In this document: piece after piece, positions 6,690-32,410 of the stretch
Numbering within the stretch: position 1 is the stretch's first letter
Layout of the letters: each line of letters begins with the position of its first letter
Assembly (NCBI GenBank): GCA_023014335.1
Contig: JAECYW010000015.1
Coordinates: 1,674,001 to 1,738,000 of the forward strand
Source of the DNA: Galerina marginata
Lineage: Eukaryota > Basidiomycota > Agaricomycetes > Agaricales > Galerinaceae
DNA length: 64,000 nt
Direction: 5' to 3'
The notes under the pieces: generated by a model
Database searches by the model: none
What the model was told of the DNA's origin: nothing
The model's input: only the letters and a program-made list of their open reading frames with translations
Position numbers and translations under genes: made by a program

Positions 6690-7419
6690 TGAGGAATACA
6701 ACTAATTGGAGCACATAAAAATCCTACACGCGACGCTTATCATTATACACGGGCGGCCGCATTGTGCCTGTCAATGTGGAACCTGCTTCTGACGGCATGT
6801 GAGCGACATTGGACATTAGTACTCCATTTATCAACCTTTATTTCTCAGATCTCAGTCTCTGCGCCATACTCCGTGGTGTCTGGCTCAGAAATTAGTTTGT
6901 TGTTCCTGCTTTTTCATGCAGTCAAGCGCCATGAACTCCCCATTTAAATGGTAAGTAGTATACAGTGTTTTTACCTCTTCGGATGCTAAGGCTTGGCCAG
7001 CGGTGCCAATGTGGTACAAATGAAGATGCGGTTGTTGGTGCATATGGATACCTTCAAGTGTCCATATGGTTTGCTTTGGGATATTAATAGTCTTCATATT
7101 GCGGACAGGATCCTGCGCGATATTGGACAATATATTTAATTTTATGTATTCTTAAGTGCAATTTCATTTTCATGTCTTGGGCACGATCTCGCACAATCTT
7201 GGTCAATCGAGACATTTTGGAATTTGGTTTTTGTAAGTCAAGAATTTCCCAAAAGTGTGAATATTTTGGGCATTGTCAGTCAAGAGCATTGTGAGTGTCG
7301 AGGCAGGTACTCAATCTTGTTGGATAGTGCTAGATCGAGCCTGTTGGCGCTATATTCTGTGCAATCTAACAAGACCTTGCAAGATAGTTCACAATCGTGT
7401 ATGCAAAGTCAATGTTTGT
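6690..7419. other. Intergenic, no gene recognised
   Basis: Short ORFs only, none with a recognisable motif. It holds scattered AT-rich words around gatattgg and caatcttg but no clear array or inverted repeat. It presumably contains the promoter of the integrase-core gene near 6690-6760 and the 3' region of the next minus-strand gene. Confidence 0.5.
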
Positions 7420-12827: not shown

Positions 12828-14538
12828 TGTGATGCTTGCTGCGGGGTGACTCCGAAACACAAAAGAGACGCGGCCGTAGTAGATAGTTTTATCTCTCAAT
12901 AAAACCAATCAACCAAACAACCAAAATCCCCTGTAAATCAGACTCTACAAGTGACGCGGACAAAACACCCAATCAATCAATCAATATAATTGACTAGTTC
13001 TTTTTGGGAGGGACAGAGGTTTTATAATATCGAGAGTCAAACGAGATATTCAAAAGGTTACGCAGCCGCCGCGGACACTTCGTTAATTGACTTAAGCGAC
13101 GCGGCCACCACAGAGGTGAACAGGTATAAAGTTTTTATTGGTATTTGGGGTCGATACTGGGACTACACTTCTTGTGTAACTGAGAAAACGGGCACTCGGG
13201 CGCGTACTGACTTGTCACTCGGGACACTGAACTCGACGTCTCTCGGGACGCGTACTAACGAAACTTGGGCCACCAAAACCCTTTACTAACGTGAACGTGA
13301 TAGATACTACAATGTCCAGAACAGTCTACAACCCTCGAAGTTGTTCCTGCTACAGTCCAGGTCTTAGACACGCGGCGCACTACCAAAGTACTCGTACCGC
13401 GGCTAATCGGATGGCCACTGAAGCCTTGTTCAAGTCAATAAAGACAGGTGAAATAGGATCGTTGTTCAAATCTCTCGAATAGTTATCACTCAGATCACAA
13501 AGGTGAAATTCCGTTATCAACGCGAACAATCAATTGTTTTGAAATTCCTCGAAGTCAAGTTACAATTTTAGAGACTCTTATTGTGCCGCGCAAACGACTG
13601 GAGTATAATCTCGTGGGTAGTAAATTGCTTGCCTCTACCTATGTAGTTCTACTGCTTTTATAGTACATTAGAGCTGATACATGTGATACATTCGCGTAAA
13701 CTACTTGACCAATCTTTAAGACGCGTCCGCGCGCCAATCTGTATGACTTCAATATCCCGCGTTATCTGTGTGACCTCATCAGACATCATCTTTGGTAGGT
13801 GCTGACTCAAGTAGAACGCGTAAGCTTTTCTGATTGGTCGGCTCCTGACTCGGCTTGTCGGCCGCGTCTGATATTTCTTCTATTTTTAGCCCATCTGATG
13901 CCCAGAGAACTTGGAGGTTCTCGGTCATCCCGGACGCGTCCGTATCTAATCTCACTAGAGTCCATGCTGACGCGAACTTGCACAGTCATCCATCTTAGAG
14001 GACGTCGGCGAGACGCGGCATCTCTAGGGACGCGTTTGTCGTCATCAGTTGTCTGATGTCAGCAAGTTCCAGACCGGTCCTCATCTATTTTTATATGTCC
14101 GAGTCATCCGATGCTTCTTCGGTCTGGCCGCGGCAATTGCCGTGACGCGATGCTGAGAAGGAGAAGCTCCGTCCATTGCCTAATGCGGAGGCGCGCGCTA
14201 ACTTCATTGGCGCTTATCGTGGCCCCATAACCTCGGATAGTAGTCCTTTCTATTTGTACTAGAGACCTGCACTTTTGATTTACTTGTCCAGGCTGGCCCG
14301 CGTTCACAATACCAGGAGTCCGCGGCCTTAATGTACAGATTTAATTGATTCTGTAGTTATAAGTCCGTTCTGCTCGCGGCACCTCGTCGCGTACAGTAGT
14401 TTCCTCTAGTCTATGCAGCGTATCTGACTACTCGGACTATTAAATAGTCACTGCATAGATACTTATTCTAAGTTCAAAAATTATATAGGGTTCGCGAAAT
14501 GCAAAGATTTCAGGGCTAGTTTCAAGGCCGTCCCTTCA
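12828..14538 (-). repeat. 3' LTR (left copy)
   Basis: This 1,711 bp direct repeat matches 30,696-32,406 with an offset of 17,868. I found only two mismatches (G at 13,098 versus A at 30,966; A at 14,083 versus G at 31,951), implying a recent insertion. It starts TGTGATGC and ends CCCTTCA. Short ORFs in it are identical in both LTRs but lack motifs and are probably not genes. It carries about 30 CGCG tetramers by hand count, and an aatc microsatellite near 12,970. Confidence 0.95.
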
Positions 14539-14553
14539 TCTCCCCCCAACTTA
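14539..14553 (-). other. Polypurine tract for plus-strand priming
   Basis: On the minus strand the sequence next to the 3' LTR is TAAGTTGGGGGGAGA. This is the expected position and composition of a retroelement PPT. Just inside lies a dyad, GTTGACTG-TCCC-CAGTCAAC (about 14,557-14,576). Confidence 0.8.
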
Positions 14554-14929
14554 GATGTTGACTGTCCCCAGTCAACGGCGTTCGGTCATGGTCCGTGCAT
14601 CCTCTCTGTCTTGGCAGTTCTGCAAATCGCGCCTTCTTACTGGCCAGTCCGGGAGACGCGGTCTTTTTCTGGGTTCGAATGTTTCCACGCCCGAGCTTAA
14701 ATCGCGCCTGGACCCGAAATCGAAGAAATTAGACTCGCCGCAACCCATTTTCCGCTCCCGTGCAATTCATGATTCGCAGGGTCGCGTCGATCCTGTGTCG
14801 CGTTCTCTCAGGTTAAGCTTTTCCCTGACTCACTGTGACGCGTCGTCTTTGGGGTATTTAATCCGTCCCCAATTCCTCGTCGAAGTCCCCATTCTTTCTT
14901 TCTTTCTTTTCACTCCACCTCGCCTCCTC

Positions 14930-16979
14930 ATGCTCAGTGACGCGTTCCTCGACTACCGCTGCGACCCCGATGTCCCGCCCACCGTTCTGGCCGCGGTGAT
15001 GCGCCTCTGGGACGCCCTCGTCATTCAACTGCCGCGTATTCTTCGGTATTACCCCAGCGCCGAGTCGTTCGAGCTGATCGCGACCGTCCTCGAGGAACAG
15101 TATGAAAACTGTGTAAGTTAATCCTCCCTTCTTTTCCTTATTGTTTGTCATGTTCTGACCTTAACTTTTCTTTAGGTCCTCATACGTTGTCATTACCACA
15201 GTCGGGACGCGCCTGTCGAGCCCTACAACATTCGCCGCGTCCGCAATCGGGTTCTCGACTTGGTCCAGCGCTCTCCAGCAGGCGACTTGTGGGCCAAACG
15301 TTATCAGCCCCTCCTGCCCGCGGACACTCCGGAGGTATATTATTTCCTTTTTCCTTCTATCTTTTCCTCATTTTCTGACTTTCTTTTGGTGCTCCCCCCT
15401 CTTTTCGACCCTCTTTTAGCCCGAGGATATCTATCCACTCGATCAGCTCGATTTCGATGTCAACCTTGGTATGCGGAACATCAAGAACAAGACCAAGATC
15501 CCCTACGCTGAGGAGAGTGACGAGGACGAGACCCCTGCCGCGCCAATGGACACGCCTATGGACACGCCGATGGAGACGCCCGGAGAGACGCCTGCGGTGG
15601 AGGAAGAGCAGGGACCCGACGAAGAGGCCGAGGACGAGGACCCGCGTCCCCCCAAGAAAGCTAAGTTATCGAAGGGATCCACTCCTAAGCTCCGCCGCAG
15701 CCACCGCGGTAAGTAACCTGTTTTCTTATATCTTCCTTTTTGTACTAACTAGATCTTGTCTTTACAATAGTTAAACCTTCTCTTCAGAGGCGGGGCCCCG
15801 ACCCTGGTATTTGGAGAAAGAGTCCTCCGGTTTCCCGGAGGACTCGTAGTACCCGCGCCTCATCGTCGAAGGCCATCCTGACTTCCTCTTCTTCGGAAGG
15901 GGAGGACAAGGCGTCGGAGACCGTTGTGGTCGCGCGTCCGTTGAAGCGGAAGGCCGGCTCTCGTCCTCCTATCAAGGACTCTAGCAAGCGCCGGGGCACC
16001 AATCTTCGTCGGGAGATTGAGGACAACCCTGGCATCCCTCTCCCTGCTCACGAAGTGCTCCCCTCGCTTTTAACCATTAACGATGTCGCGCGTCTCGCTC
16101 GCGACAATATGCAGGTAAGTCCTTATATTTTCCTTTTCGTGCCGCTAAGTCTTATGTCTTTCTTTTAGCCCGACAATCGTTGCCAGACCTGCCGCGACCT
16201 TAACCGTTCCAAGTCGGTCTGCGCCTACCGCGGCGAGAATGAGAAATGCCGTGCTTGTGCGGTCAGCAAGTATCGATGCGACTTCCAAATGGCCTCCGTC
16301 GAGCGCGAACGCGGCCGGAATGTTAGCCATTCCATTGGTGAAGAGTCTCTTGCTAGTAAGCGCTTGTTTCTTAATCTTTTTCTTCCCTAACTCCTTCTTT
16401 TCAGACCTGCGATGCCTTATCGAGGAAAGCGAGCGCGAGACCCTCCAACGCGCCGTGCTCCTTCGACTCGTCAATGGTCATGACGCTCGTATCCGGGAGA
16501 TCCAGCGCGCTGGGCGCGACATTATCTTTGCCATGTTGCGTCGCTCGAACTTGGCCGATCTCCAGCCTGCCATTACCGACAATCTTACTACCATGGCCGC
16601 GCTCTGGACCGCCCTCCGCGATCCCGAGGTCCTTTTCGATGTTTTAGACGGTACCGCGCCTTTTTACGAAAACAACATGTCCCTTACCGACGTACTCGAT
16701 TTATTGCCCGCAGCTCACCGCGTCACTCTCCTCGAACAGGTCCAGCAGGGCATCCTCAATCTGGATGGCCATGTGTCTAGTGGCAGTTCGGACTCCAGTT
16801 CCGACGAGTCTGAGGACGAGGCTCCTGCTCATCCCCTGGTCGACCTCGAGGCTCAGGAGTCGGATGGGGAGGAATCTGATGCCGCCGCGGCTGATGAAGA
16901 CGCCGTTGGGCCCGCTCAGGTTGCTCCCGGGGCTAGTTCCGACGAGTCCACCGAATCCAGCTCCTCAGATGAAGAGTAG
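14930..16979 (+). CDS. Cargo gene A: acidic protein with a Zn2Cys6-like cysteine cluster
   Basis: Six exons splice cleanly with GT-AG introns and continuous frame: 14,930-15,112, 15,176-15,334, 15,420-15,708, 15,771-16,114, 16,169-16,355 and 16,405-16,979, giving 578 aa. The N-terminus looks helical. Next comes an acidic Thr/Pro/Met repeat region (MDTPMDTPMETPGETP) and basic stretches (PPKKAKLSK, PLKRKAG). In the middle is CQTC-x9-C-x8-CRAC-x6-C, six cysteines spaced much like a fungal Zn2Cys6 DNA-binding cluster but with a longer first loop. The C-terminus is a Ser/Asp/Glu-rich acidic tail. A DNA-binding or chromatin role is inferred, not shown. The gene is antisense to gag-pol and lies between the duplicated polypurine tracts. 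There is no coding overlap with neighbours. Confidence 0.8.
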
Positions 16980-17476
16980 GTGGGCTGGGTAGTTATCTTT
17001 TTGTTGTATCATTTACTCTTGCTACACCTCGTCTTTCCGTTTCGTCGCGATCGTTCTTTTGTAGACTACTAGTTTAGCTCTTAGGTATTTTGAAGGCTTT
17101 TATATCTAAGTAACTAGTAGTTCTTTTGTTTTCTATAGTCAAAATTATAAAGCCTTTTTCTTGTTAAACTTTGCTTGATTCTCGATCTGTCTGATCCTCT
17201 ATAATGTCTTTGTGAGGTTTAATAAAATTTGAAAATTTTATTGGTACTATTTTATGGCGCGCGGCAGCCTCTCTCCCCCCAACTTAAATATCAACTGTCC
17301 CAGTTGATCAGCAGTGCTGACTAAATCAAATAATACTGCTCATCAATATTACAGATCGAGATCGTAACGGGTGGGTTGAGTTTACAGCCGCCGCGTCCAT
17401 GACCAAAATTAATCAGAAGCTTCATTGAGTCTATCAGTATAAAATCTGTTTTGGCCAAGAGTAGTTCTAGGCAGTC
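16980..17476. other. Spacer between cargo genes A and B1
   Basis: AT-rich spacer with possible polyadenylation words (aataaaattt at 17,221) for gene A and the promoter of gene B1. It contains the duplicated polypurine tract at 17,272-17,286. Confidence 0.5.
17272..17286 (-). repeat. Internal second copy of the polypurine tract
   Basis: The 15 bases at 17,272-17,286 (tctccccccaactta) are identical to 14,539-14,553 next to the LTR. Each copy is followed by a short hairpin with different sequence but the same pairing: TCAACTG-TCC-CAGTTGA here and GTTGACTG-TCCC-CAGTCAAC near the LTR. The compensatory changes argue that the hairpin matters. Confidence 0.7.
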
Positions 17477-18279
17477 ATGTCTTTCTCGACGATATCCTCG
17501 CCTTCCCCTCCGCTTGAAGACGTTTCTTATTTCGACGCGACACCATATAGCGCCATTGATCGTCATTTTGCCTGCTATCCCATCAATATCCGCAATAATC
17601 CTCGCTGGTTACAGCATTATCACCATTATCTGGCGCTCGTGAAACGCGCTTATAGTGATTACGTTCACGCGGCTGTTGGTAATCGAGGCGCGGCCGCAAC
17701 ACTTGGCATACCGATGGATGCTTTGAAGAAGCTGACCCGCCGAATGGTTCTTCACTCTTTTTCTATCTATAAGCTGTTACTAAAATTGTAATAACAGCTT
17801 CAGGTTCCCGACGCCTATATTGTATATGGATCCGAGTTCGCGGAAATCTATCAGCGCGTCACCAATCGATGGATTGTTGCTCAGACATTCAATCCTGGTG
17901 TCGCGTCCAGCAGTACAGGTCGTCGTGTCCTTCGGTCTATGATGCGCCCAGATTTACCATTACTCCCTCGTTATTCATCTGTAAGTCTCAAGGTTCTTAA
18001 TGATTCATTCCAATAACAATAAACGATCTTTAGGAAATATACGAGGCCTGGCGTTTCGGCAACGCCTACCTCAGCGACCGTCAGTTCGCGGTTGTTCTGG
18101 ACTCGGCCTGGGAGTCCGTAACACTCCTTCGCATTCACAGTAGGCGTCGTGAGTACGCGGGCATAGAAAGTTCCATGTACGCGGGCTATTCAGCCGCTGC
18201 ATTGGAAGTGGAAGGGACGCGGACCTTGACCCCGGCCGTTTTGGTGGACTCTGGATCAGCTTGTGATTATGCGTTGTAG
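17477..18279 (+). CDS. Cargo gene B1, first of three tandem paralogs of an unknown family
   Basis: Exons 17,477-17,746, 17,804-17,980 (or starting 17,798; two in-frame acceptors six bases apart) and 18,034-18,279; all introns are phase 0; about 230 aa. The first donor (gttctt) is weak, which lowers certainty. I do not recognise the family. Shared with B2 and B3 are a Y/F-G-[ST/P] start of exon 2 (IVYGSEFAEIYQRV), a W about 8 residues on, a hydrophobic/Pro run (LPLLP) at the end of exon 2, and exon 3 opening with E/G-x-x-A-W or V-W then G/R-N. The C-terminus reads VLVDSGSACDYAL. The fold looks helical; function unknown. Confidence 0.65.
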
Positions 18280-18393
18280 TCATACGGAACCAATTCTCGT
18301 CCTTAGTCAATGACCATTATCATCCTATCCTTGCTAAATTATCATTTAAGAGGCTTGGGTTCTATCCGGGACGTAGTCAAACGATCTTGCTAC

Positions 18394-19162
18394 ATGTCCC
18401 TACACTTCTCCTTTGCTACCATTCTTGACAACGAGAAGGAGTTCTTCCTTCTCGCCGCAATTATTGATCACACACGCGCCGACTTAGTCTATGACGATGC
18501 TACGCAAGCTATCTTGGATGCTGCCGATGCTCGTCGCGCCGCTTTCTGCGAGCTGGTGGCCGCCGCGGCGCCACTTAGAACGGACTTTGTGCCTCCCATC
18601 GATGCTCTCGTAGCGTGGACCGAAACCTTTGTGCGTACCTGTTGAAGCTTTTGACTTCTGTTTGACTCAATCCCGTCTCGATTAAAGCTCCAATTTCCTG
18701 CCGAATTGATAGAATTCGGTACCCCCGTCGCGCTACACTTCCTGGGGATAGCCAGTCAATGGGTTTACTTGATCAAAGCTCGCGCGCGCCCGGGAGTTGC
18801 AGAAGTCGCGGTCCAGCGTCATGTGTCCCACGCCGCGGGGGGCATGCTAGAGATGATGGTAGAGCCCAGCATTCCTACCTTGAAGGTCGCGGACGAGGTA
18901 TGCTTCTCTTTTGCTCGGTCTCTTTTTACACCTTCTGATGGTCTGGGATCAGACTCTTCAAGCGGTCTGGATGACCGGAAACCTGTCGTACCATTCCGCT
19001 TTCAACTTCGCGCGCTCAGAGGCTGACGAGCAAGCAGAGATGTGTTACGTTAGGGCGATTGGGTGGGCAGTTAACGAGCAAGCCTTGCGGTTCCCCGTCC
19101 AGCATCATCCCGCTCTTCGTCCCTTTGCGATGGATATGTCCCAAGAAACTCCGTCTGATTAA
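18394..19162 (+). CDS. Cargo gene B2, second tandem paralog
   Basis: Exons 18,394-18,630, 18,688-18,897 and 18,953-19,162, both introns phase 0; 218 aa from ATG 18,394. The frame is open further upstream to 18,310 but that part does not look coding. Exon 2 opens FPAELIEFGTPVALHFLGIA followed by SQW. Exon 3 opens TLQAVWMTGNLSYHSAFNFA, matching B1 (EIYEAWRFGNAYLSDRQF) and B3 (GLHAVWQIRNIDYQKFQK). The intron positions match too. It starts only about 115 bp after the B1 stop, consistent with tandem duplication. Confidence 0.68.
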
Positions 19163-19262
19163 ACACGATTTCTGTATGCCTGTTATAGAATTACTGGCCG
19201 CGGCCCAAAACTATAAAATTAAGACTATTTTTCCGCGTCCACTATCTTCTTCGAAAAGACCA

Positions 19263-19919
19263 ATGCCAGCCTTCCTCAGTGCTGAAGATAGTGCTCCGTC
19301 TTCCTTCTACGAGCCCGCGCTGCCCGATTGCTTGCTCGTTCCTCAGGCTCTCTTTAAAGAAGCGTTTGCCGCGGCTGGTAATGCTGCGGGCAATTTCACT
19401 TTCGATGCCCTCTACGATCTTTCCAATGCTTTGGTGTGTATCTTGTTGCCGCGGATCCTATTTCTGTGGCAACCCAAAACTGACTTATACTCGTCTAGGC
19501 CTCAGTCGGTTCCCCGCCTATAGTCTACGGGACCGCCGTGGCGGACGCGTACATCGAGGTTTACACCGTCTGGCTACAATTTTCGGAATCCCTTCGGTCC
19601 TTCGAGTTGATCCCACCCGCTTTCAAGTCCCTCATGCTCTGTCCTGAGGTCCCGCGTCTCCCTCAAACATTTGGGGTACGCGGTCGTTACTCTCGGTTAT
19701 CTTTTTCTGATCGCGATTTTTCTTTATCAGGGTCTCCACGCGGTCTGGCAAATTCGAAACATTGATTACCAGAAATTTCAGAAGCGCGTTAGTGAAGAGG
19801 AGTACATGCGATGCAACTTCCATCGCATTCTCGAGTATGCTGAGCTGGAGAAGACTTTTCGACCTGTTCGCGACTTCTTCCACCATCCTGAGGCAATAAC
19901 CGGAAGCATCTTAGTCTAG
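19263..19919 (+). CDS. Cargo gene B3, third tandem paralog
   Basis: Exons 19,263-19,433, 19,499-19,675 and 19,731-19,919, phase-0 introns; 178 aa from ATG 19,263 (an in-frame ATG at about 19,175 is an alternative start). Exon 2 contains VYGTAVADAYIEVYTVWLQF, then FKSLM and PEVPRLP, comparable with MMRPDLPLLP in B1. Exon 3 has AVWQIRNIDYQKF and EEEYMRCNFHRI. No known domain recognised. The hAT-like element begins 223 bp downstream. Confidence 0.68.
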
Positions 19920-20134
19920 ATGATGTGTATCAGATGGTTCCGTTAATGTGATCAGTGATCGTTTCTATATCGGGGTAACGAATTTCCAATAGTGGTAAAG
20001 CGTCCGATCAAATGACCCGCCTTTATTATGTTGGCGCGTCGCGATAGCGTACGCGCTATTGCGTAGCTACTGCGTACGCCATTCATGTGTTATTGCTTAC
20101 GTCCTGTCTCTTACGAGACTGGTCATGAAGATGA
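19920..20134. other. Spacer downstream of gene B3
   Basis: Short non-coding stretch with the palindromic repeat words gcgtacgc and gcgtcgcgat around 20,033-20,080, part of the CGCG-rich character of the retroelement. Confidence 0.4.
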
Positions 20135-20142
20135 CTTTTAGG

Positions 20143-22212
20143 CAGTACTTTTCATTCCCCCACTGATTCCCTAGGAATGGCGGGAATCCCTCTATTCCTG
20201 TAGGATTCCCAGTGGAATGGAGGGAATTCCCTTTATTCCTTGGGGAATTCCTTCTATTCCTTCTATTCCTGTGGATTCCCTCTATTCCCTGAGGATTCCT
20301 CAAGGAATAGAGGGAATAGTACCTATAGTGTGTAATACAGGCCATCTAACTGGTGTTTTTCTTACTATTTGCTAGCTTCACTGTCAGGTTTCAATACAAT
20401 TCACATATAGTCTATTATTGATACTAAACATCATATATTACATTACTGCCAGTGTTACGCTATTCTAATTACTTTAATTATATTTACAATAAACGGAGGC
20501 GGGGTGGGTGTTGTACACAACGGTGGCCGAACGCCAGCCGCCGCGCGAGTTCGGCGGCCGTTCGCGAAACGAGTCGGCGCGGGGAGTTGGAGGGAGGAAG
20601 GGCGTGAGTGCAAAATGGCGGAGGGTGGGCCCAACTCGAGGCCCGCGGGTGGGTTAAACGAGAAGGGGTGAGTTCGATGGGAGGTAAATAGGTTGGGGTG
20701 CTTACCGGGTGTCTGTGGGCCTATCCCCCACTCCCTAAACCCCGCGTTCCGTTTCTCGACGTCCGTTAGGTGGTACTCGCAACCCGGCAGCGAGCTGTGG
20801 GGTCGCGGTGGTCGTTCGTTTGACACTGCGTGGCCGACGCGGGTGATGGTAGGGGTCGACATATTGCGGGCTGCGGGCTCGGAGCCGCAATGGTGGGGTT
20901 GGGCCTGAAAAGGTGGCGATGGTCGTCGTGGCCGTTTCAAGCGGAAAGGCAGCGGCGGGGGGTTGGTGTGGCTGCCGCTGGCTCGAAACAGCGGCGAACG
21001 CGGCTGGGGCGTTCGCGGGAGCGGTCGTCATCGTTTGATTGCTGTCTGGGGGCGTCAGCGGAGGCCTAGGTTGATGGGTGGGGTGCTTACCAGGTGTCGC
21101 TGGGCCTCAATGGCGTTCCTATGACCCAGTCCCGGCGCGGTTTGTCTCTCGAGCTCCGTGACGTGGCATTCGCGCCACGTCAGCGAGCTGTGGGGGTCGT
21201 AGAGGCGGAGCCGGCGTTCGTTCAACGTGGAGGCAACGTCGTGGTGGCTGGCGTCGACGTGGCGGTGGCAGGTGGCGCCTCGGGCGTGAATGGTGGGGTT
21301 GGGCTCGAAAACGCGGTGGCGGGCTGATGGGCTTCGGGTCCCGTTCGCAAAACGAATGCGAACGGGTGAGCGATGGGCGCCGCGGGAGTCCCAGCGCACG
21401 GGTGGTGGGGGCTAACGAGACTGCCGTGGGTTCAAAATGGTTTCGGGGGCGATGCGAGTCGAATCCGGCGGCAGTGGGGGTGACGTGGTCGCTGTTGATT
21501 CGAAATGAGGGCGGAGGGGTCGGGTTGGGGTCGACGTTGGCCGTTTCCGCGGCTGCCGTTGGTTCGAAACGCCAGCGGACGAGCCAGAGGTGGATGCTGG
21601 GGCATTAACGAGGGTGGAATAGGGATGGATGGGATCGGGGGTGCTTACCGGTACCTCTGGTCCCTTTTCCCCACTCCGTAAGGCGCTGCGACGTGGCCAA
21701 CGCGCTGTTCGCCCTCTGAGGCCCGTGACGTGGCAGTCGCGACGGGGTAAGCGAGGGGGTTCAGAGTCGTGGTGGCGGGGTCGGCGACGTTCGACGTGGC
21801 GGGTATTGTGATGTGGTGGGGTCGACGTGGCGCCAGCGGGTCGTGAGCGCGCATGCCGACGGTGGCGGCGAAATGTCGCAGCCGGCGGGACTGGACGATA
21901 AGGGGGGAGGAGAGGGGGGAGAGGGACGGTGGTGGTGGTCGACAGGCAAGAGACTGGCACGACGTGGGGAAATCAACAAGCCACGACAGGTGGGAACATT
22001 ACGTAATCGTATGATGTAACCTCATATTCCGCCGCGGAATCCCACCGAATTCCCCATTCCGGACGTTCCGCGCCGCATTCCGCCGGAATATAACCCACGG
22101 AATTGGGGCTTTTGGCTGGTCCCTCTGCCATTCCGATTCCTGCAGGAATCCGCGGAATTTCGATATTCCGGCCGGAATCCTGCAGGAATCAGTGGGGCAT
22201 CACTAAGACCTC
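20143..22212. mobile_element. hAT-like non-autonomous element, copy 1 (2,070 bp), nested in the retrotransposon
   Basis: It is flanked by 8 bp duplications CTTTTAGG (20,135-20,142 and 22,213-22,220). It starts CAGTACTTTTCATT and ends GCATCACTAAGACCTC. The imperfect terminal inverted repeats share the core CCCCACTGATTCC about 15 bases in from each end. Subterminal zones (20,160-20,320 and 22,030-22,200) are dense in ATTCC/GGAAT in both orientations. The interior is GC-rich and holds three diverged modules starting with GTGCTTACC (near 20,698, 21,083, 21,644) and ending near GTGACGTGGCA. No transposase ORF. The ends and size match 48,763-50,800. hAT assignment rests on the 8 bp duplication and CAGT end. 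Confidence 0.88.
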
Positions 22213-22352
22213 CTTTTAGGCTCTATGCAGTGTACACAGTGCAGCGTAGACGCTCGATTTTTCCTGAACGGTCCGCCCTGCCGCGTCGCTTTTGCCAGAC
22301 TATAAGTTCAACTGGGCGTCCACCTGGGATTCCCTACCCAATCTTTCCTATA

Positions 22353-23638
22353 ATGCGCGCCGCACTTAACCCTTCCTTAGAGGATGCCGTTAGGCAAACC
22401 TTCTATATTATGCATCACACCACCCCCGAGTCTCCTCACGACATTAAGTCTATAGGTAGCCTTTGGAGTGGTTTGATCGACGCGGCCAAGTACATTGTGA
22501 GCCGCGTCCCCCTTTCATTTCCTTTCTATACTAAAGTATCCTTTATCTTTCTCAGTCAGGTTGGGTCGAACAACCTTACCAGGTCCAGGAGGCCGGTAAA
22601 GCCGCTAGGGATATCCCTTTCGGTATACGCCGCGCCTTTCAAGACTACAAGAAAGCTTATCCGACCAAGTTCACCGAGTACCCCCAGGAGTATCGTCTTA
22701 TGGCTCGACTCTGCAAGATCATCCAGGAGATCAGGGATAAACCTGCTCCCCCAGTAAGTCTAGTTGTTTCTTCAATCCCTGCTTGTTGCTAAACTTTGTT
22801 TATCCTGTTTCCATTAGACGAACAAGCAGCTTAGCCGCAATGGACTTGAACGCGGCATGGACAGGGACGAAGACCAGGTATCTAACTTATCTTTCTTGCC
22901 GCGGCCTCTCACTAAAGAGGATCGATTTTCAGGACGACTCCGAGGAGGTAAAGCTCATCCTCCCTGGTACATTTGTTACCACTCTCTTGACGCGCGCGTT
23001 CCAGGCTATGGTGGTGGACGACGAGGGCGGGCCTGGTGGTAGTCAACCACCTGCCGCGTCTGGTGGAGATCGTACTTTGCGCTTCAAGAAGAAGCAGACC
23101 CCTACCAAGGTACGCAACCCACCTCGCTCTTTCGTCCATCAGAAGAAACCTAAGCCTGGGCCGCGTCCACCAGTCTGCGGAGAAGCCTCGTGCCGACGTG
23201 AGTTTACAACTCTTCTTTTATTGTAGAACCGATACTTATAGGCTTCCTACTTTCTGTAGACCACAAAGTCCAACCCTGCCCCTTCCTCAAAAAGGTCAAA
23301 GCCGAGTCATCCCGTCGCCGACGGTAAGTTAACAATCTTTACTTTTCCCTATCTTTATTCTAAACCCTTCCTTAGGGGCGCCCCATGCTGAGCTATCAGC
23401 TGGGATGCTCCAAGAGGCTTCTGAACTCGCGTCGTCCAGTGCTCTTCCGACTGATCGGGAGGGTATTGACCGTCAGATCGCGATGTTGAACGGAGATTTA
23501 GGTGACTATGCTTATAAGGTCGCCTATAATCTTCGTCAGCGCGAGATAGCTTTGGCCGAATTGACTAAGCTTAAAGAAGCTCGTTTATCCATGGAGGTCC
23601 CAATTGAAGTCGAAGAGGAGGTGGTTGAGGTTAATTAA
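22353..23638 (+). CDS. Cargo gene C: hypothetical protein with charged, helical C-terminus
   Basis: Exon 1 is 22,353-22,496 (48 codons). About seven more exons follow with short GT-AG introns (acceptors near 22,555, 22,818, 22,932, 23,006, 23,141, 23,260 and 23,375), ending at the TAA at 23,638. The N-terminal part is helical (SLEDAVRQTFYIMHHTT; GIRRAFQDYKKAYP), the middle is basic and low-complexity (RFKKKQTPTK, KKPKPGPRPP), and the C-terminus is a likely coiled coil (YNLRQREIALAELTKLKEAR) followed by an acidic end. I do not recognise the family. The hAT-like element ends 140 bp upstream, so its insertion may have displaced this gene's promoter. Confidence 0.65.
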
Positions 23639-23736
23639 AACGACGCGTCAATGTCTAGGTTTTTCCCATAGTAGACTAGTCTCTTCTACTTAGGCACTTT
23701 TTCCTAAATATCAAGCAAATTTTTGCCCGCGTCACT

Positions 23737-26700
23737 TTACTCTTCTGCCTCGTCTTCTTCCGCGTCTGAATCCTCAGCTAAATGGACTTTGTCTAACGCG
23801 TAATCTCGTCTCTTTGGCTCAAAGTCATCTTCTGGGCCATTGACTATCTTAGCTAGTCCTTCTTCTGATATATCAATAAGATCCAAGATGTTGTCGGGTA
23901 CCTTAATACGTTCGCGGGCGAAATAAGGTACTACCCTAAAGGCCCCTACTTTATTTTGCCAGACTGCCCCGTCCATTTCTGAGACAACATAAGAACCGCC
24001 GCGGGTCCGTCTTATGACTATCATTGGTCCTAAATAACGCGGCTTCATCTTACTGTCTAAATTATCCTCGACTAGCGTATTTCTTACTAACACCAGGTCT
24101 CCTGGTCCGAAGTTATAATCTTTAATGACAGCTTCGTTATCTTTCTCATAGCGTAGTAATTTTTCATACTTTTGCTGATCTATTCTGCCGCGCATTTGTT
24201 CTATATGGAGCCGGTGCTTGGCTAATGCTTGAGCGCGGAACGCAACTAGTTCTTCGTGGCTCATCACACCTGTCGGTGGTTTGACTAACCAAGTTGCTTC
24301 TTTCACATCTAACGGTAGGATGGGATTAGCACCCGTTATCATAAAGAATGGTGAACACCCTAGTCGTTTCCGTATAGTGACGCGGTCAGCCCACATCACA
24401 TATGGTAGAAACCAGAACCACTTATGGACGTTCTTTTCCCCTAGTAACTTGTATAACATTTGCCTGACGTCCCAGTGAGGTCGTTCAATTGAGCCATTAG
24501 CTTGTGAGTTATAAGGCGAAATCCTAATCCCTTTAATGCCATATTTCTGCTCAAGCCATTTTATCGCGGCGAGGAACGCAGGACCGTTATCCGTTACAAA
24601 CTCTACCAAGCAGGCCCATCTACAAATGATATCTTCCCAGATCCACATTCCAATAGACCGACCGTCATTTTTCTTTAACGCGCGTCCCTCCATCCAAGAA
24701 GTCATCGCGCAGCGTCCGTGAGCAATATAAGGACATCCATTAGACGCGGGCGTCATATGCATCACGTCCGCGTGCAATGTCTGGAAGATTGACGGCGTAT
24801 GAGTAATGACTGGCTTTATCTTTAACATAGTCTTCTGACGTTCTTGGCATACATGGCAAGTCTTGATAAACCAATTGACGTCTTTCTCCATTTCTGGCCA
24901 CCAGAACCTCTGTATTAGTAACTGATTGGTAGCATAGAAGCCTCGATGACCAACATGGTCGTGTGCCGCGGTCAACATATACATCCTTCTTTTCTTTTCT
25001 ACGTATAACCTATGCTTGGCTTCCTGTCCTCTATGGTACAGTCGTCCCTCATACATTATAAAACGGTTCGCAAATCTGATAAACTGTGTGTACTCTTTTT
25101 CTTTCAAGCCCGCGGGCCTGAACCTTTTATTATTAAACCACTTCAGAACCCAAGATATCCTATTATCCTGTTCTTTAGCGCTAGGAGTCCGATGTAATTC
25201 TGGGTACGCGCCAGACTTATTCTTGAAGTCAGTCTCGTCTGGTAGGGCTAGCACATTAACTAACTGTTGTACCATGTCGCGTCTTTCGGGTCCCAATTGT
25301 ACACTATTAGTGGTCAAATAATTTTCTAGTTGATCCTTTTCTTGCAGTCGGAAGATGTCAGCCTCTGCGAGCTCGGTCGCGAAGCAATCCACCGACTTTG
25401 CAATGCCTTTGAAATGACCTTGCGTTTCTTCAATGTCATCTACAAAGTCTACTATAGGACGCGGCAGCGGGTCGGTTACCTCCGCTAATTCTATGCGAGG
25501 TCCTACTCCAGCTTGAATAAACACATTATCCACTATGGCTTGTGTGAATCCTTTCCTATTATCTATTTGATCCGCGAACTCCTCAATCGGTCTTAACGGC
25601 GGATCATCAGGATTTGCTATTTCTATTTCTACCGGTCCCGAAGGATCGTCGTCGTCATTCTCTGTCTCCGGTGGTTCGGGATCATTAGGCTGGCGGTGGC
25701 GCCGCGACAATCCGTCAGGGCCAAAAGTTTTCCCCGCCTTGTGACGTAGAGTAAAATGAAACAGCCCGACTTGCTCTATCCAGCGGTTAATTACCGCGTT
25801 AGGCATCATGTCCGGATTATGTAGCATTCCCCCTATGAACTGCGCGTCCGTTTCCACTATCAGTTTCCTGACTCCTATTAACCACTTCTTATTCTCAGTC
25901 AAAGCTCTCTTTAATCCATACAGCTCTCGTTTTGGTTGTGAGTACCGCGCCTCCTGATCACTTAGTGTGATGGAGCCAAATTTTGCAAAACGATGCTTCT
26001 TGGGATCGTCCTTGTCTTCTTGATAGATGTAGTACCCCACTGCAATATATGAAGTATCTACTGCTAAGACAACTGCCCCTTGTCCTTCGTAATCAATAGG
26101 TTGGAGCGCGTACGAATTTCGCACTCCATCTTTTAGCATGGCCATACTCTTTTCTTGATCGGGACCCCAAACAAATGGAGTGTCGAGCCGCGTCAACTTT
26201 TGAAGATGCCGCGCCCGCTCCGCGTAATTGGAGATATACGATCTGAGTACGCCCGCGGTTCCTAAAAACGCTCGGACATCGGACAGGTCTTTACACGGGC
26301 CCCAGTCCTCTATGACCTTGATACGTTCAGTAGTAGGTTTTCGTCCATCCATGGTACACAAGTGCCCGACAACAGTGATTTCGGCCGCGCAGATAGTCGA
26401 CTTAGTACCAGAGAAGGTTCCACCACAGTACTTCATCCGTTGTACAATTCTGTTTACATTCTGTATGTGCTCCCATACAAACCTTCTAATTCCAGCATTT
26501 TCTGGTATAGTTTCATATGATCCGTCCTCCAGCTTGTATCGTGTTTTGGGGCCGCGGACGGGCACATCATCTATATAGGGTATCGTACAATGCGGAATTT
26601 CCGGTTGTAGGATAAAAGTCACATCATTGTGGAATATTGGCACAGAGTTTGTCCAACCCATAGGTAGTGTTACCAAACGCATAGCTCCGTAGGGCGTCTG

Positions 26701-27627
26701 AAAAGTAGTGAGGTCGCGGCTTGACTCGTCAAGTATCCGCTCGTCATATCCTACATATAAATCAAACATGCCTCCACAGGCGCGGCCCGCGAAATGGGTG
26801 GCTAAATCTTCTGTAGCCGGTGGCAGACCCGAATGCGCGATGGTAACTGCATTCAAAGGTTCCAGACTGTGTACTATCCTTAGACTTTTTCCATCCTTCT
26901 TTACTACAGTAAACCATCTAGATCTAAATGACGAGTTCGACGGCTCATAGACTCCTGAGTCCCTTTTTGACTTGATTATTTTACAAACCTCGTCGTATAG
27001 TCCGGGAGGTATGGGAATATTTTTATATACCCAAGGAGTGTGCTCTACGGTAGGGATGACTACGGGAGGGAAGAAATCTTCCCTAAATTGTCCGCGTTCA
27101 GTGTCATCCCAAGCAAAGGCGCCGTTCTGCTCCATCATAAAATGGTGGACCAGTTTTCTTTCTTCTGGGAGTAAGAAATCACCGTCATGTACCTTATCAA
27201 ATGCCTGTTGTCGTTCCGCGGTATACCGTCCAGTGGGAGTAAACTCAGGTGGGTGCGTACTTAACTTCGGCATATTTTCTAACGGATCTCCCTTAATTTC
27301 TCTCTTGATTCTAAATTTTTCGGGCAATTCAGCATAGACGGGTTTTACTTTCTGAGCTACAGGTTTGTATTTCTTTCCTAAGAAAACCGACGCGGCAGGT
27401 CCAGAGGACGCCGAGAACACTTCTCCTTGCTGAAAGAAAGCCTGCACTTTTTCCTTGTCTGACTTGTCTATGTTGTCTTCGTGTATTGCCGCGGCTAGGA
27501 AGGCATTCCTAACACCTTCATCTGAAAACTTCTGTCCTTTCGGTTCAGCATATCCTGCAATGGATATGGTCTGAGTTTCTTCATTCAACTCGAACAACAG
27601 CGCTACCTCTCCTTGATCAGGGATCAA
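23737..27627 (-). CDS. pol: Pol: reverse transcriptase, RNase H and integrase
   Basis: 1,296 codons open from 27,627, but that first codon is TTG and the frame continues upstream into the end of the protease ORF, so Pol is probably made by frameshifting. RT has the YIDD catalytic box near residue 351 and LPMGWTNS before it. RNase H starts with [17 protein letters not shown] near 519. Integrase has an HHCC finger ([10 protein letters not shown] ... CHVCQERQ, about 892-930) and the D, D, E core ([27 protein letters not shown]; about 952, 1010, 1046). The C-terminal part has a GPMIVIRR segment near 1203, similar to the GPY/F module; I see no clear chromodomain. Domain order is that of Ty3/gypsy. 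No internal stops. Confidence 0.92.
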
Positions 27628-27641
27628 TTCCTCAAGGTGAT

Positions 27642-27651
27642 CTAAAAAGCC
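27642..27651 (-). other. Candidate -1 frameshift site, protease to Pol
   Basis: Minus strand reads CAG GCT TTT TAG. A backward slip of one base on the five-T run avoids the stop and continues TTA GAT CAC CTT GAG GAA TTG ATC into the Pol frame, which is open at this point. The run is not a perfect X XXY YYZ heptamer, but position and frame fit. Confidence 0.55.
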
Positions 27652-28826
27652 TGAGCCTTCTTCCTCTGAAGGACATCCGGACTCTCGCCGCGGCGATAAG
27701 TAGGTAGCACAGCTCTGTTATTGCTATTGGGATCGTTAATTACAATCCTTTGATCCCCATCGTCGCTGTTCTGTACCGTGCTGCTAGTTAGCACATCAAA
27801 TGGTCGGCCTAGCAGGACACGGTAAGCGGGATTTTTGATGATGTGCACCTGTAGGTACACCGTAACCCCTCCGAACTGGAACGCGACATTTTCTGCTAGT
27901 CCTAAACTTTTCTCAACTGATCCATTGGCGCTTTGCATGTTAATAGTGATATTAGGATTCCAGGTTAAACCCATTTCTACTGCTATAGCTTCTGCCATGG
28001 ACACTATCTGTGACCCACTATCTACAATAGACTCCTCTTGTCCGATATTATTGATCTTCGGATAGAGAGATCTTAGAGCATAAGTGTCGCGCGCCACATA
28101 GACTTCTTTGGGTACCGCGCCATCATGGGTTTGAGCAAATTGTAGGTACGGATCTGACGCGACTTTCAGATCAGGTCTCAGACTTTGGTCGTTAAGTATG
28201 CCAGCCAGCATATAATTAGATACTGGTAGCTGATCTACTGTTAGACCTGTTTCAATCTCCCTACTGCGCGCGTCTTCTTCCAACAATTCCTCCATGAGTA
28301 CCGGTTTCCGAGTTTTAGTGACGTTCCTTTTCAGCGCGTCGCGAATGTTAGGCGCGTTACCCAAAAGGTTCCTCAAAGGGATGGATACTGATAAATCCAA
28401 TATCTCTTCCAGAACCTTTTCTGAATCAGCCTGTTCTTCTACTGGCGCTTGGGTTTTGTAGGACGGTCCCGGACGCGGCACTTCCTCACTGGTCGTTGGT
28501 TGAGGCGTTCCAGTGGGCCGTTGGACTGATTTCAAAGGTGGAACATCTACGTAAGGTAGCTCCTTAGGTTTTATTATTGCCTTAGGGAGACTCTCCTTTG
28601 TCGATGTCCTCTCTTTGACTTTCTTTCCTGGCCGCGTCGGTTCACGACGTACTTCTGCTACTTCTTCTTCGTCACTGTTGGCCTCTTCCTCTGCTTCTGT
28701 CTCATTATCTATCTCTTCGCGGGCTGCATTTCTTTTTGCAAACCTAACGCTTCGACTGTTCTCCGGGGGTTTCGTTTTGGTTGACTTATCCGCTGGTCTA
28801 GAAGAGGAAGTCGCCACCCCCTTCAT
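27642..28826 (-). CDS. Retropepsin-like aspartic protease ORF
   Basis: 394 codons from ATG 28,826; the frame is also open upstream into the gag end. The first 150 residues are charged, low-complexity linker. The protease has VDSGSQIV (catalytic Asp near residue 268) and [11 protein letters not shown] near 335-345, the usual DSG and flap-distal ILGRP-like signatures. Ser in place of Thr after the catalytic Asp is known in other retropepsins. It would process Gag and Pol. It occupies its own frame between Gag and Pol, an arrangement that calls for two recoding events or reinitiation. Confidence 0.85.
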
Positions 28827-28831
28827 CGAAC

Positions 28832-28844
28832 TTACTGAAAACCC
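28832..28844 (-). other. Candidate -1 frameshift site, Gag to protease
   Basis: Minus strand reads TCG GGT TTT CAG TAA. GGGTTTT fits the canonical X XXY YYZ slippery heptamer in the correct phase (G GGT TTT). Slipping back one base gives TTT TCA GTA AGT TCG ATG AAG, entering the protease frame exactly before its ATG. The same bases also spell GTAAGT, a perfect 5' splice donor, so splicing is an alternative route. Confidence 0.65.
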
Positions 28845-30532
28845 GACTGAGACGAGGTCTGGTCCGCGGCTTCTGCCCTAGCGAATTCAGCCCTTGTTAA
28901 CACCCTATCGACAGCATCTCTGCCATACTCTTGAGAGAGGAGTGCTAAGTGTCTCGCAATCTCCGCGTCACTTGCCAACCGATCATGAGCTTGAGTGTAG
29001 AAGACGTCGTAGTCTTCGTCCACATCTTGGAAGAAGCCCGTTTGTGGTGCGGGTTGTCTTGCCGGGACCGCTGGTCTGCCGCGGTTCTTGAACTCAATTA
29101 CTTCTTTCATTGTCTTGTTTCCATCCAACGGTACTAGGTCGCCGTTAGGTAGTCGGATTTTATTTGTCTCATTCCGTACTACCCAACCATAGGAAACATG
29201 CTTACTAGCATGTGGACAGTCACCAATGCGATGACCCGTCTCCCTACAGTAGAAACAGATATTTCCATTGGAATCGCGGCCCATGTACGTATTGTTCCTG
29301 TTGTACATTCCCGGTGGATTAGCTGGTGGTCCGTTAAACGGAGTAGGAGTAGGCGCCCGTTTTAGTCCATTTATCGCGTTGAACATTTGATCGAGCCGCG
29401 TCGATATGTCCTGCGTTGTCCGAGCTTGGAGCTTAACGGAATCTTGTAATGTCGCCATACCTTCTTCTAGTTTTGGGATTGCTTCCCTATCATAAGACGC
29501 GTCCGGTCTACCATAGGCCGCGGCAGTTTCGTTAGTGCCGTACCGACTTCCTGACTGGTAGTTACGTTCCGCGACTATTATCGCGGCATCGATCACATCG
29601 TTAAGAGTAAAGCGATCCTCGTTCCTCTTGCGCTCGACGGTACCATCAGGCGCCGTTGGCTTAGTCCTGTCACTGAGAAGGTCCAGCCTATCTTCGATAC
29701 GCCTTACAAACTCTGGGTGAAGACAAGAATAAAATTTTAAAACTAGTTCCCGGTTAGACATTAAAGCTGGAGGCGTTAGAAGTTTAGCAGCTTCGGCACA
29801 GAAGGACCTTTTCAAACTCAAGAGTTCTTCTAGGTTTTCCTCTCTGATGCGCCTGCCACCTCCCTTCGCGCGAATTATCTTTTCCAACCTCTCTAGCGAG
29901 CCTGTTTCTAGGGCCGCGGCCTCGGGGTAACTTTTTATAATTTCTTTCTTATAATCTTCCCAGGTTCCTGGTTCTTTATAGGAAGCAAACGCCTGCCACT
30001 CAGACTCTGTTACGGCTGTCGCGTACTTTCCTAGGAGCTTTTTCTTTTCTGCGTCGTCTTCTATCTTATTTGTTTTGTACAAGTCCTCGATCCTACTAAT
30101 AAATCGTAGTAGTTCCGATGGCTGGTCTTCGTCGAACTTGGGCGCGTCTCGCGAGCCCGGGATTGGCATAGTCATTTTGTCTGAACTTATTATGGGTTCT
30201 GGGACTACGTCGGGTATTGGGTTGACTGTACTTTGTGCTACAGTTGATGGTGTTGTTAAAGCGAGTGCAGAGGTGGACCTGATTATATCTTCAGGTTCTA
30301 TACTGGCTCGTCTTTGTTGGTGATCCAAATTAGCTTCGATCCGCTGTCTATAGCGTTCCTGAGCTGGATTTTTAGGCTTGGCTGGTTTAGATTTACTAAC
30401 GCTTGGTAGCTTGTCCTGATACGGAACTACGGGTCTATTAGAATTGACTGTGGTTCTCGTCGGTCGCCGGACAGTTACGGTCTGAGGGACTTGACTTGTG
30501 GTCGCGGCACCTTCAGTACTTTCTTGCTCCAC
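28832..30532 (-). CDS. gag: Gag polyprotein with a CCHC zinc knuckle
   Basis: 566 codons from ATG 30,532, about 160 bp after the primer-binding site. The N-terminal 150 residues are basic and Pro/Ser/Thr-rich. The central part has the helical capsid-like region (FDEDQPSELLRFISRIEDL, then a W-containing helix). A single zinc knuckle CFYCRETGHRIGDC (C-x2-C-x4-H-x4-C) lies near residues 424-437, followed by VSYGWVVRNETNKIRLPNGD, a motif I associate with mushroom gypsy Gag proteins. It packages element RNA into particles. The ORF is intact. Confidence 0.88.
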   Translation of the reverse strand: MEQESTEGAATTSQVPQTVTVRRPTRTTVNSNRPVVPYQDKLPSVSKSKPAKPKNPAQERYRQRIEANLDHQQRRASIEPEDIIRSTSALALTTPSTVAQSTVNPIPDVVPEPIISSDKMTMPIPGSRDAPKFDEDQPSELLRFISRIEDLYKTNKIEDDAEKKKLLGKYATAVTESEWQAFASYKEPGTWEDYKKEIIKSYPEAAALETGSLERLEKIIRAKGGGRRIREENLEELLSLKRSFCAEAAKLLTPPALMSNRELVLKFYSCLHPEFVRRIEDRLDLLSDRTKPTAPDGTVERKRNEDRFTLNDVIDAAIIVAERNYQSGSRYGTNETAAAYGRPDASYDREAIPKLEEGMATLQDSVKLQARTTQDISTRLDQMFNAINGLKRAPTPTPFNGPPANPPGMYNRNNTYMGRDSNGNICFYCRETGHRIGDCPHASKHVSYGWVVRNETNKIRLPNGDLVPLDGNKTMKEVIEFKNRGRPAVPARQPAPQTGFFQDVDEDYDVFYTQAHDRLASDAEIARHLALLSQEYGRDAVDRVLTRAEFARAEAADQTSSQSGFQ

Positions 30533-30675
30533 GTGTTTCTCTTTCGCTTTGCCTTTGCCCGCTATTTTCTTAAAGTCTCAGGGTATAGCTGATCCTTCAA
30601 AAGAATAGATGGTTTTGGTTTTATGAACGTGTTTGTAACAATTGTTTTATCTGAATTGACTCTAGTATTAACCCT

Positions 30676-30693
30676 CCCTCGCGGTGGGCTCCA
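30676..30693 (-). other. tRNA primer-binding site of the retrotransposon
   Basis: On the minus strand, two bases after the 5' LTR end (CATCACA-TC), the sequence is TGGAGCCCACCGCGAGGG. It starts with TGG, the complement of the universal tRNA CCA end. I cannot name the tRNA without a search; the discriminator base would be U. Confidence 0.65.
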
Positions 30694-30695
30694 GA

Positions 30696-32406
30696 TGTGA
30701 TGCTTGCTGCGGGGTGACTCCGAAACACAAAAGAGACGCGGCCGTAGTAGATAGTTTTATCTCTCAATAAAACCAATCAACCAAACAACCAAAATCCCCT
30801 GTAAATCAGACTCTACAAGTGACGCGGACAAAACACCCAATCAATCAATCAATATAATTGACTAGTTCTTTTTGGGAGGGACAGAGGTTTTATAATATCG
30901 AGAGTCAAACGAGATATTCAAAAGGTTACGCAGCCGCCGCGGACACTTCGTTAATTGACTTAAGCAACGCGGCCACCACAGAGGTGAACAGGTATAAAGT
31001 TTTTATTGGTATTTGGGGTCGATACTGGGACTACACTTCTTGTGTAACTGAGAAAACGGGCACTCGGGCGCGTACTGACTTGTCACTCGGGACACTGAAC
31101 TCGACGTCTCTCGGGACGCGTACTAACGAAACTTGGGCCACCAAAACCCTTTACTAACGTGAACGTGATAGATACTACAATGTCCAGAACAGTCTACAAC
31201 CCTCGAAGTTGTTCCTGCTACAGTCCAGGTCTTAGACACGCGGCGCACTACCAAAGTACTCGTACCGCGGCTAATCGGATGGCCACTGAAGCCTTGTTCA
31301 AGTCAATAAAGACAGGTGAAATAGGATCGTTGTTCAAATCTCTCGAATAGTTATCACTCAGATCACAAAGGTGAAATTCCGTTATCAACGCGAACAATCA
31401 ATTGTTTTGAAATTCCTCGAAGTCAAGTTACAATTTTAGAGACTCTTATTGTGCCGCGCAAACGACTGGAGTATAATCTCGTGGGTAGTAAATTGCTTGC
31501 CTCTACCTATGTAGTTCTACTGCTTTTATAGTACATTAGAGCTGATACATGTGATACATTCGCGTAAACTACTTGACCAATCTTTAAGACGCGTCCGCGC
31601 GCCAATCTGTATGACTTCAATATCCCGCGTTATCTGTGTGACCTCATCAGACATCATCTTTGGTAGGTGCTGACTCAAGTAGAACGCGTAAGCTTTTCTG
31701 ATTGGTCGGCTCCTGACTCGGCTTGTCGGCCGCGTCTGATATTTCTTCTATTTTTAGCCCATCTGATGCCCAGAGAACTTGGAGGTTCTCGGTCATCCCG
31801 GACGCGTCCGTATCTAATCTCACTAGAGTCCATGCTGACGCGAACTTGCACAGTCATCCATCTTAGAGGACGTCGGCGAGACGCGGCATCTCTAGGGACG
31901 CGTTTGTCGTCATCAGTTGTCTGATGTCAGCAAGTTCCAGACCGGTCCTCGTCTATTTTTATATGTCCGAGTCATCCGATGCTTCTTCGGTCTGGCCGCG
32001 GCAATTGCCGTGACGCGATGCTGAGAAGGAGAAGCTCCGTCCATTGCCTAATGCGGAGGCGCGCGCTAACTTCATTGGCGCTTATCGTGGCCCCATAACC
32101 TCGGATAGTAGTCCTTTCTATTTGTACTAGAGACCTGCACTTTTGATTTACTTGTCCAGGCTGGCCCGCGTTCACAATACCAGGAGTCCGCGGCCTTAAT
32201 GTACAGATTTAATTGATTCTGTAGTTATAAGTCCGTTCTGCTCGCGGCACCTCGTCGCGTACAGTAGTTTCCTCTAGTCTATGCAGCGTATCTGACTACT
32301 CGGACTATTAAATAGTCACTGCATAGATACTTATTCTAAGTTCAAAAATTATATAGGGTTCGCGAAATGCAAAGATTTCAGGGCTAGTTTCAAGGCCGTC
32401 CCTTCA
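30696..32406 (-). repeat. 5' LTR (right copy)
   Basis: Direct repeat of 12,828-14,538 (1,711 bp, two mismatches seen). It should carry the promoter that drives minus-strand gag-protease-pol transcription. It is flanked on the right by the ACGG target duplication. Confidence 0.95.
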
Positions 32407-32410
32407 ACGG

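Follow-up and report, generated by a model that had tools for sequence, protein, structure and literature searches.

The window analysed here, a stretch of 64,000 nucleotides of the Galerina marginata genome (contig JAECYW010000015.1, 1,674,001 to 1,738,000), contains a 19.6-kb Ty3/gypsy long terminal repeat (LTR) retrotransposon at positions 12828-32406. A short dyad, GMCGCGKC (M1), is dispersed over this whole element (12828-32406), and two sister families in the same genome bear dyads of their own; protein A, encoded by a cargo gene of the element, is the likely reader of these sites. The element reads on the minus strand, as indicated by a primer-binding site (PBS)-like sequence, TGGAGCCCACCGC, which follows the 5' LTR (30696-32406) on that strand, and a polypurine tract (PPT)-like sequence, GGGGGGAGA, which adjoins the 3' LTR (12828-14538); both were called by eye. 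The two minus-strand LTRs, each of 1,711 bp, differ at two positions and end in TG..CA, and a 4-bp target-site duplication (TSD), ACGG, flanks the element (12824-12827 and 32407-32410). Paired LTRs, TG..CA ends, TSD, PBS and PPT together give the structure of a Ty3/gypsy element.

The minus strand carries, in gypsy order, a gag-like open reading frame (ORF; 28832-30577) whose CCHC knuckle scores below the Pfam cut-off, a protease-containing ORF (27642-28877) and a 3,981-bp pol ORF (23737-27717; 1326 amino acids (aa)). Protease, RNase H and the integrase H2C2 domain, the latter two in pol, scored above the Pfam cut-off, and the reverse transcriptase and integrase cores had no Pfam match. Beyond pol lie three cargo genes (A, B and C), all intron-bearing and encoded by the plus strand; this antisense orientation would let their introns survive the RNA cycle. 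Gene A (14930-16979), modelled by hand and by script, has six exons (14930-15112, 15176-15333, 15419-15708, 15771-16114, 16169-16355 and 16405-16979) separated by introns at 15113-15175, 15334-15418, 15709-15770, 16115-16168 and 16356-16404, and encodes 578 aa with a six-cysteine cluster in exon 16169-16355. Gene B (17477-19900) is multi-exonic, with an uncertain model and uncertain ends, and gene C (22353-23638) has an approximate model with some uncertain splice sites. Between them lies a nested GC-rich insert (20140-22200, ends approximate) edged by GGAAT/ATTCC-rich repeats. Five of the six other two-LTR copies of this family are about 2.1 kb shorter from LTR to LTR than the window copy, and the sixth (C23) is about as long; that copy has a similar extra length, yet a different gene A haplotype.

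The tetramer CGCG occurs 247 times in the 19.6-kb element. Its density is 12.4/kb once the nested insert is excluded; host DNA has 2.9-3.1/kb where it flanks the element and 2.8-3.2/kb in three 10-kb samples from other contigs. An earlier note on this DNA, made from the sequence alone, had drawn attention to this bias, and its hand counts proved right: 30 CGCG in the LTR, 41 in the 3,981 bp of pol, 2 in the 1.8 kb to the right of the element and 14 in the 3.5 kb to the left. Unbiased k-mer enrichment gave a top 6-mer z of 22.9, the best k-mers being CGCGGC (73 seen, 7.7 expected) and CGCGTC (62 and 8.6), and GACGCGGC was found 17 times against 0.5 expected. Expectation maximisation (EM) resolved the enriched unit to GMCGCGKC, the palindrome emerging with no symmetry imposed. 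With a position weight matrix (PWM), 93 such sites were identified in one LTR plus the interior without the nested insert, or 5.9/kb, compared with 0.55-0.57/kb in the flanks. The word is a real, family-specific dyad, with a different unit from the one the note had favoured: CCGCGG makes up only 27 of 196 CGCG in F1, the window family, and is one form among several.

The dyad occurs on both strands and throughout the LTR, the cargo genes and gag-pol, so that the bias does cross coding and non-coding DNA as claimed. The non-palindromic forms are nearly strand-balanced (CGCGGC 35/38, CGCGTC 35/27), and the two halves of the element, analysed apart, returned identical top words. In pol, CGCGKC was seen 27 times compared with 3.0 in 300 synonymous-codon shuffles (z 14.4), and GCGC and CCGG gave z 1.3 and -2.3; the word is therefore explained neither by codon use, as the note had argued, nor by protein sequence. 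Within gene A, the introns hold no CGCG in about 310 bp and the exons 29 in about 1,740 bp. The nested insert, an internal control, showed no enrichment beyond its composition (4 M1 sites seen, 4.0 simulated). Tandem Repeats Finder detected no tandem arrays of the word; of its five rows in the element, four fall in the nested insert and one covers 40 bp. A tight trio, CGCGKC..CGCGKC..CGCG, was rejected as a fingerprint after giving 342 genome-wide matches against 482 for the reversed control, and the signature is density across kilobases. Counts per kb are under-dispersed (variance/mean 0.42-0.58, combined P ~0.009), which, being partly trivial exclusion, gives only a hint of even spacing.

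Protein searches of the 69-Mb genome revealed three families that combine genes A and C with this type of pol, namely the window family (F1) and two sisters, F2 and F3, of each of which one copy was read whole. Both share the F1 architecture. The F2 copy (C8:1010968-1028367) has a pol ORF 84% identical to that of F1 (DNA 72% over the alignable part), and the pol of F3 (C34) is 79% identical. F2 contains 8.4 CGCG/kb, its top 6-mer reached z 15.4, and EM yielded the dyad GGMCGCGKCC with 64 PWM sites. Its pol holds 14 CGCGKC against 1.7 in synonymous shuffles (z 9.1), and its non-palindromic forms are close to strand-equal (CGCGGC 13/18, CGCGTC 25/25); the pol half is weaker, with CGCGTC at z 7.6 and purine-rich words equally strong among 7-mers. 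F3 has CGCG at host level (3.1/kb) and is enriched instead (top 6-mer z 17.6) in ACCGTAC (29 seen, 1.7 expected), ACCGTCC (21 and 1.9), CCCGTAC (18 and 1.5) and CCCGTCC (17 and 1.7), which EM resolved to the dyad GKACSGTMC with 110 PWM sites. MCCGTMC occurs 23 times in F3 pol against 2.2 in shuffles (z 14.6), and the two halves of F3 also returned identical top words. Over the F3 sequence as a whole (L033+L034), MCCGTMC is strand-biased (58:27), at 37:8 in the LTR-cargo half and 21:19 in the gag-pol half.

F2 is intermediate, with a CGCG core plus some MCCGTMC (8 in pol against 1.9 in shuffles; 1.9/kb overall, compared with 0.1-0.3/kb in the three 10-kb host stretches). A pol tree groups F1 with F2 against F3, with F4 and F5, two families described below, outside (support 0.968), and F1 and F2 are the pair sharing the CGCG core. 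The half-site layouts are GMC-GC-GKC in F1, GGMC-GC-GKCC in F2 and GKAC-S-GTMC in F3, with spacings of 2, 2 and 1 bp. The motif therefore differs between related families, the CGCG core of F1 and F2 standing against GKACSGTMC in F3, and, apart from that shared core, each dense motif is confined to its family when set against the host stretches and the elements fetched.

The nearest relatives free of genes A, B and C among those fetched lack such a word. F4 (C26; 9.6 kb, 773-bp LTRs) has a pol 50% identical over the whole ORF and 67% over the matched part, and is counted as cargo-free, although a further 2 kb or so separates its LTR from the end of pol; F5 (C40:138800; 8.1 kb) has a pol 49% and 63% identical, respectively. 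Their best 6-mers reached z 4.9 (F4) and 5.7-5.9 (F5), within the host baseline of 3.9-7.0 in seven stretches, and synonymous shuffles of F4 pol gave z 1.1 and -1.4. A word of this kind is accordingly present in all three cargo-bearing families and in neither of the two nearest cargo-free ones. Five further gypsy elements, whatever their cargo (L043, L045, L046, L047 and L048), showed no comparable word; L045 has a TA repeat at z 8.9, and L043 holds 5.9 CGCG/kb, yet its best 6-mer gave z 4.5. The earlier note would have given up its hypothesis had equal CGCG density turned up in unrelated elements or host DNA; the host stretches and further elements sampled ranged from 1.6 to 5.9/kb compared with 12.4/kb in the window element, which leaves it unrefuted on this point.

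A separate dispersed word was identified in a 6.2-kb Ty3/gypsy chromovirus (L044; C4:1104500-1113499, element at 1320-7563), which has a chromodomain and no cargo genes. CGGAA occurs in it 97 times (15.5/kb, compared with 1.4-3.1/kb in 12 other sequences), and 63 times in its pol against 24.1 in synonymous shuffles (z 10.2). A 94% relative (L049; C13:253800-260100) holds 10.6/kb, and relatives at 66, 62 and 55% are without the word (1.9, 1.9 and 3.8/kb). Like the window element, this is an LTR element with its own word dispersed in LTR and coding DNA; unlike it, the word is no dyad by EM, and the two pols are only about 30% identical.

Individual dyad positions turn over. F1 and F2, aligned at 72% identity over the region between gene C and gag inclusive, hold 68 and 39 CGCG, of which 17 are shared; 17/68 is close to the 0.72^4 predicted, which indicates that positions are replaced while density stays above background. 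The gene A stretches of three F1 haplotypes likewise hold 36, 38 and 34 CGCG in 2.5-2.7 kb. Changes in the LTRs were counted with one LTR per copy, leaving out second LTRs and L020-L023. Among the seven two-LTR F1 copies, 5/784 CGCG bases had changed, against 27/783 in other CpG and 75/4011 at other C/G; Fisher tests of CGCG gave 6e-5 against other CpG and 0.014 against other C/G, values that overstate independence, the copies being related. In five solo, partial or broken F1 copies the figures were 31/507, 48/497 and 67/2567. Transitions made up 76 of the 79 CpG changes in the broken copies, 26/32 in the two-LTR copies and 53/67 of the other C/G changes in the broken copies. Transitions are common in every class; more informative is the raised rate of change at CpG, found mainly in L015, L017 and L018 at several times that of other C/G and nearly always as transitions. 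CG methylation in mushrooms concentrates on transposons, according to two reports (PMC6627472, PMC12730594), and the CpG decay of solo and broken copies is, as expected, the pattern that methylation and deamination would leave in silenced copies. The dyads of intact copies would then be kept by selection or shielded. In six F2 LTRs, 7/456 CGCG, 31/824 other CpG and 35/3350 other C/G bases had changed, so that CGCG is lower than other CpG only; the sum leaves out L027, which seems to be the other LTR of the L026 element, as well as L022, L023 and L029 (too short or unmatched).

Protein A has a G. marginata protein 80% identical to it over 98% of its length. Its cluster reads C-x2-C-x7-9-C-x8-C-x2-C-x6-7-C across F1, F2 and F3, the six cysteines being invariant. 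The dN/dS (nonsynonymous to synonymous substitution rate) ratio of gene A is 0.13-0.22 overall, 0.19-0.33 towards the N terminus and in the middle, and 0.06-0.08 in the cluster part; the cluster is under strong purifying selection. The pattern of the fungal Zn2Cys6 domain (PF00172) is C-x2-C-x6-C-x5-12-C-x2-C-x6-8-C, from which the first loop of 7-9 residues departs, and only F3 of the three family versions scanned matched PF00172 at all. The Zn2Cys6-like cluster that had been attributed to gene A thus stands as a six-cysteine cluster and falls as a canonical Zn2Cys6 domain, with no match above the cut-off. Neither A (a 718-aa F1 model) nor B or C (F2 models) hit any Pfam family above the cut-off, and only G. 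marginata proteins passed as wider homologues of A and C, in searches of which two scored just some 8,000 candidates, those with the most words in common. The gene A haplotypes of the window copy, C24 and C8 have pairwise synonymous divergences (dS) of 0.86, 1.31 and 1.61 with open frames, and the backbones of the seven two-LTR F1 copies are 96-100% alike in their LTRs and 99-100% in pol protein. Such anciently diverged versions of gene A on near-identical LTR/pol backbones, seen between 14930-16979 of the window and L038 and L039, suggest cassette exchange of gene A between copies.

With confidence evenly divided, we read these data as showing three families each dotted with its own dyad, likely the binding site of the element-encoded protein A. 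That A is the reader is likely from the co-occurrence of word and cargo, the symmetry of the sites and their co-variation with the family. Protein A would bind as a dimer, with half-site and spacing varying by family; a two-fold symmetric site with the spacings given above would suit a dimer whose linker is flexible. It would occupy around a hundred dyads per copy and pass over isolated chance sites in the host, whose genes would be spared because stable occupancy needs high density over kilobases. Binding would label the copies of its own family. A likely purpose, a weaker step than the reader and one drawn from the CpG footprints and from analogy with the VANC proteins of Arabidopsis VANDAL transposons, is anti-silencing: bound A may shield the element from CpG methylation and heterochromatin, the part that VANC plays on VANDAL, and selection would then retain dyads even within coding sequence. 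The proposal in the earlier note of a self-recognition or anti-silencing module is supported in part, through the family-specific dispersed dyads and the differing words of sister families with the same cargo. More tentatively, we envisage a family barcode along the whole LTR element, read in the cargo clade by a co-evolving dimeric protein A so that silencing is kept off its own copies only, and in the CGGAA chromovirus by a host or foreign reader that is used or hijacked.

Several observations weigh against this reading, in addition to the relatedness of the copies behind the Fisher values. The chromovirus shows that a dispersed family word can exist without A, B and C. The match of the F3 cluster to Zn_clus is weak (E 0.03, 14.9 bits against a cut-off of 21), the F2 cluster is by identity slightly nearer to that of F3 (27/51) than to that of F1 (49%) though its word is nearer to F1, and the AlphaFold model of one G. 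marginata homologue is uninformative (predicted local distance difference test score, pLDDT, 43.8). Broken F1 copies also change CGCG somewhat less than other CpG (P 0.046); protection is weaker in F2, where CGCG changes no less than other C/G. The host 7-mer AAGACCG in the left flank reaches z 10.0.

Because of the chromovirus, the main rival is reading by the host: DNA-binding proteins such as transcription or chromatin factors, recruited family by family, would recognise the dyads, and gene A would do something else. The dense CGGAA word in L044 and L049, the former without cargo, lowers our confidence in gene A as a necessary reader and makes the phenomenon itself more interesting. Words of the CGG type are characteristic of zinc-cluster regulators in fungi, which fits such a host factor. 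We nevertheless consider this unlikely: with F4 and F5 lacking a word, cargo and word go together in the five families compared, and sisters with roughly 80% identity in pol differ in their words, as a co-evolving reader encoded by the element would more readily allow.

The reader could instead tether integrase to resident copies, giving self-targeted integration or copy-number control. Two of nine two-LTR copies inspected are indeed nested in an own or sister element, an F1 copy (C40) inside an F2 pol region and an F3 copy inside an F3 LTR. The flanks (up to 1.5 kb) of the other seven have no match to F1-F5, and clustering in silent chromatin would yield equal nesting. Of 11 F1-F3 insertions, nine have perfect NCGN TSDs, the C40 copy has an imperfect one (GCGT/TCGT) and a C34 solo LTR has no matching pair; F5 has GCGA and F4 CCTT. 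The integrase thus seems to target CpG, at 4-bp NCGN sites that by eye are unlike the dyads. Self-targeted insertion is a weak candidate for the main function on these grounds, and we regard it as improbable.

A role of the palindromic words at the RNA level, in genome dimerisation or packaging, is more improbable again: the F1 and F2 words are even palindromes and the F3 word is strand-biased, but the non-palindromic forms are near strand-equal in F1 and F2, the F3 bias is confined to the LTR-cargo half, and the odd-length F3 dyad cannot fully self-pair. A bias in the composition or mutation of the element, for which one could cite its undepleted CpG and GCGC above host level (103 against 54.7), is the least credible explanation and already largely refuted, as shuffling accounts for GCGC but not CGCGKC in pol and the excess lies in 6-8-mers with fixed flanks that differ between sister families.

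If protein A does read the dyads of its own family to hold off silencing, the system, a family-specific binding code running through the coding sequence of a retrotransposon, would show how a parasite achieves self-recognition while leaving host genes untouched. It would also show how sister families come to differ in such a code (spacing 2 to 1, half-site GKC to GTMC). It would offer a protein-DNA pair in three natural variants and possible modules for sequence-specific epigenome editing. The separate CGGAA word of the chromovirus suggests that barcodes of this type may be more widespread in retroelements than has been recognised.

To our knowledge, sequence-specific anti-silencing by a transposon is known only from VANDALs. 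In the open-access literature searched, largely as titles and opening parts of abstracts, VANDAL/VANC is the sole system in which a transposon protein reads dispersed motifs specific to its family, with no fungal or LTR example; the present system, if confirmed, would mean that VANC-type anti-silencing arose a second time, independently, and, within that literature, for the first time in a retrotransposon and in a fungus. In VANDALs (PMC5735166, PMC10398659), 8-9 bp motifs (YAGTATTAY for VANC21, AGTTGTMC for VANC6) are concentrated in the elements, which are marked by motif density and not by single sites; the VANC reader has conserved and highly variable parts, and AT9TSD1, an unrelated element, has motifs of the VANC6 type too. 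The likeness is that of a short, dense motif varying between related families. VANDALs, however, are plant DNA transposons whose motifs, tandemly repeated and in one orientation, are found mostly in non-coding DNA, whereas the fungal LTR retrotransposon carries its dyads in coding and non-coding DNA alike, strand-balanced in F1 and F2 and free of tandem arrays. The likeness of protein A to VANC is one of analogy. Fungal DNA transposons carrying TET/JBP genes (PMC12730594) are likewise mushroom transposons with a gene thought to counter silencing by CpG methylation, and differ in that A, B and C have no Pfam match above the cut-off. Plant LTR retrotransposons with additional ORFs, described in a paper in which the term antisense is frequent (PMC7264820), similarly have genes beside gag-pol; the element described here has three antisense, intron-containing genes together with a dispersed word.

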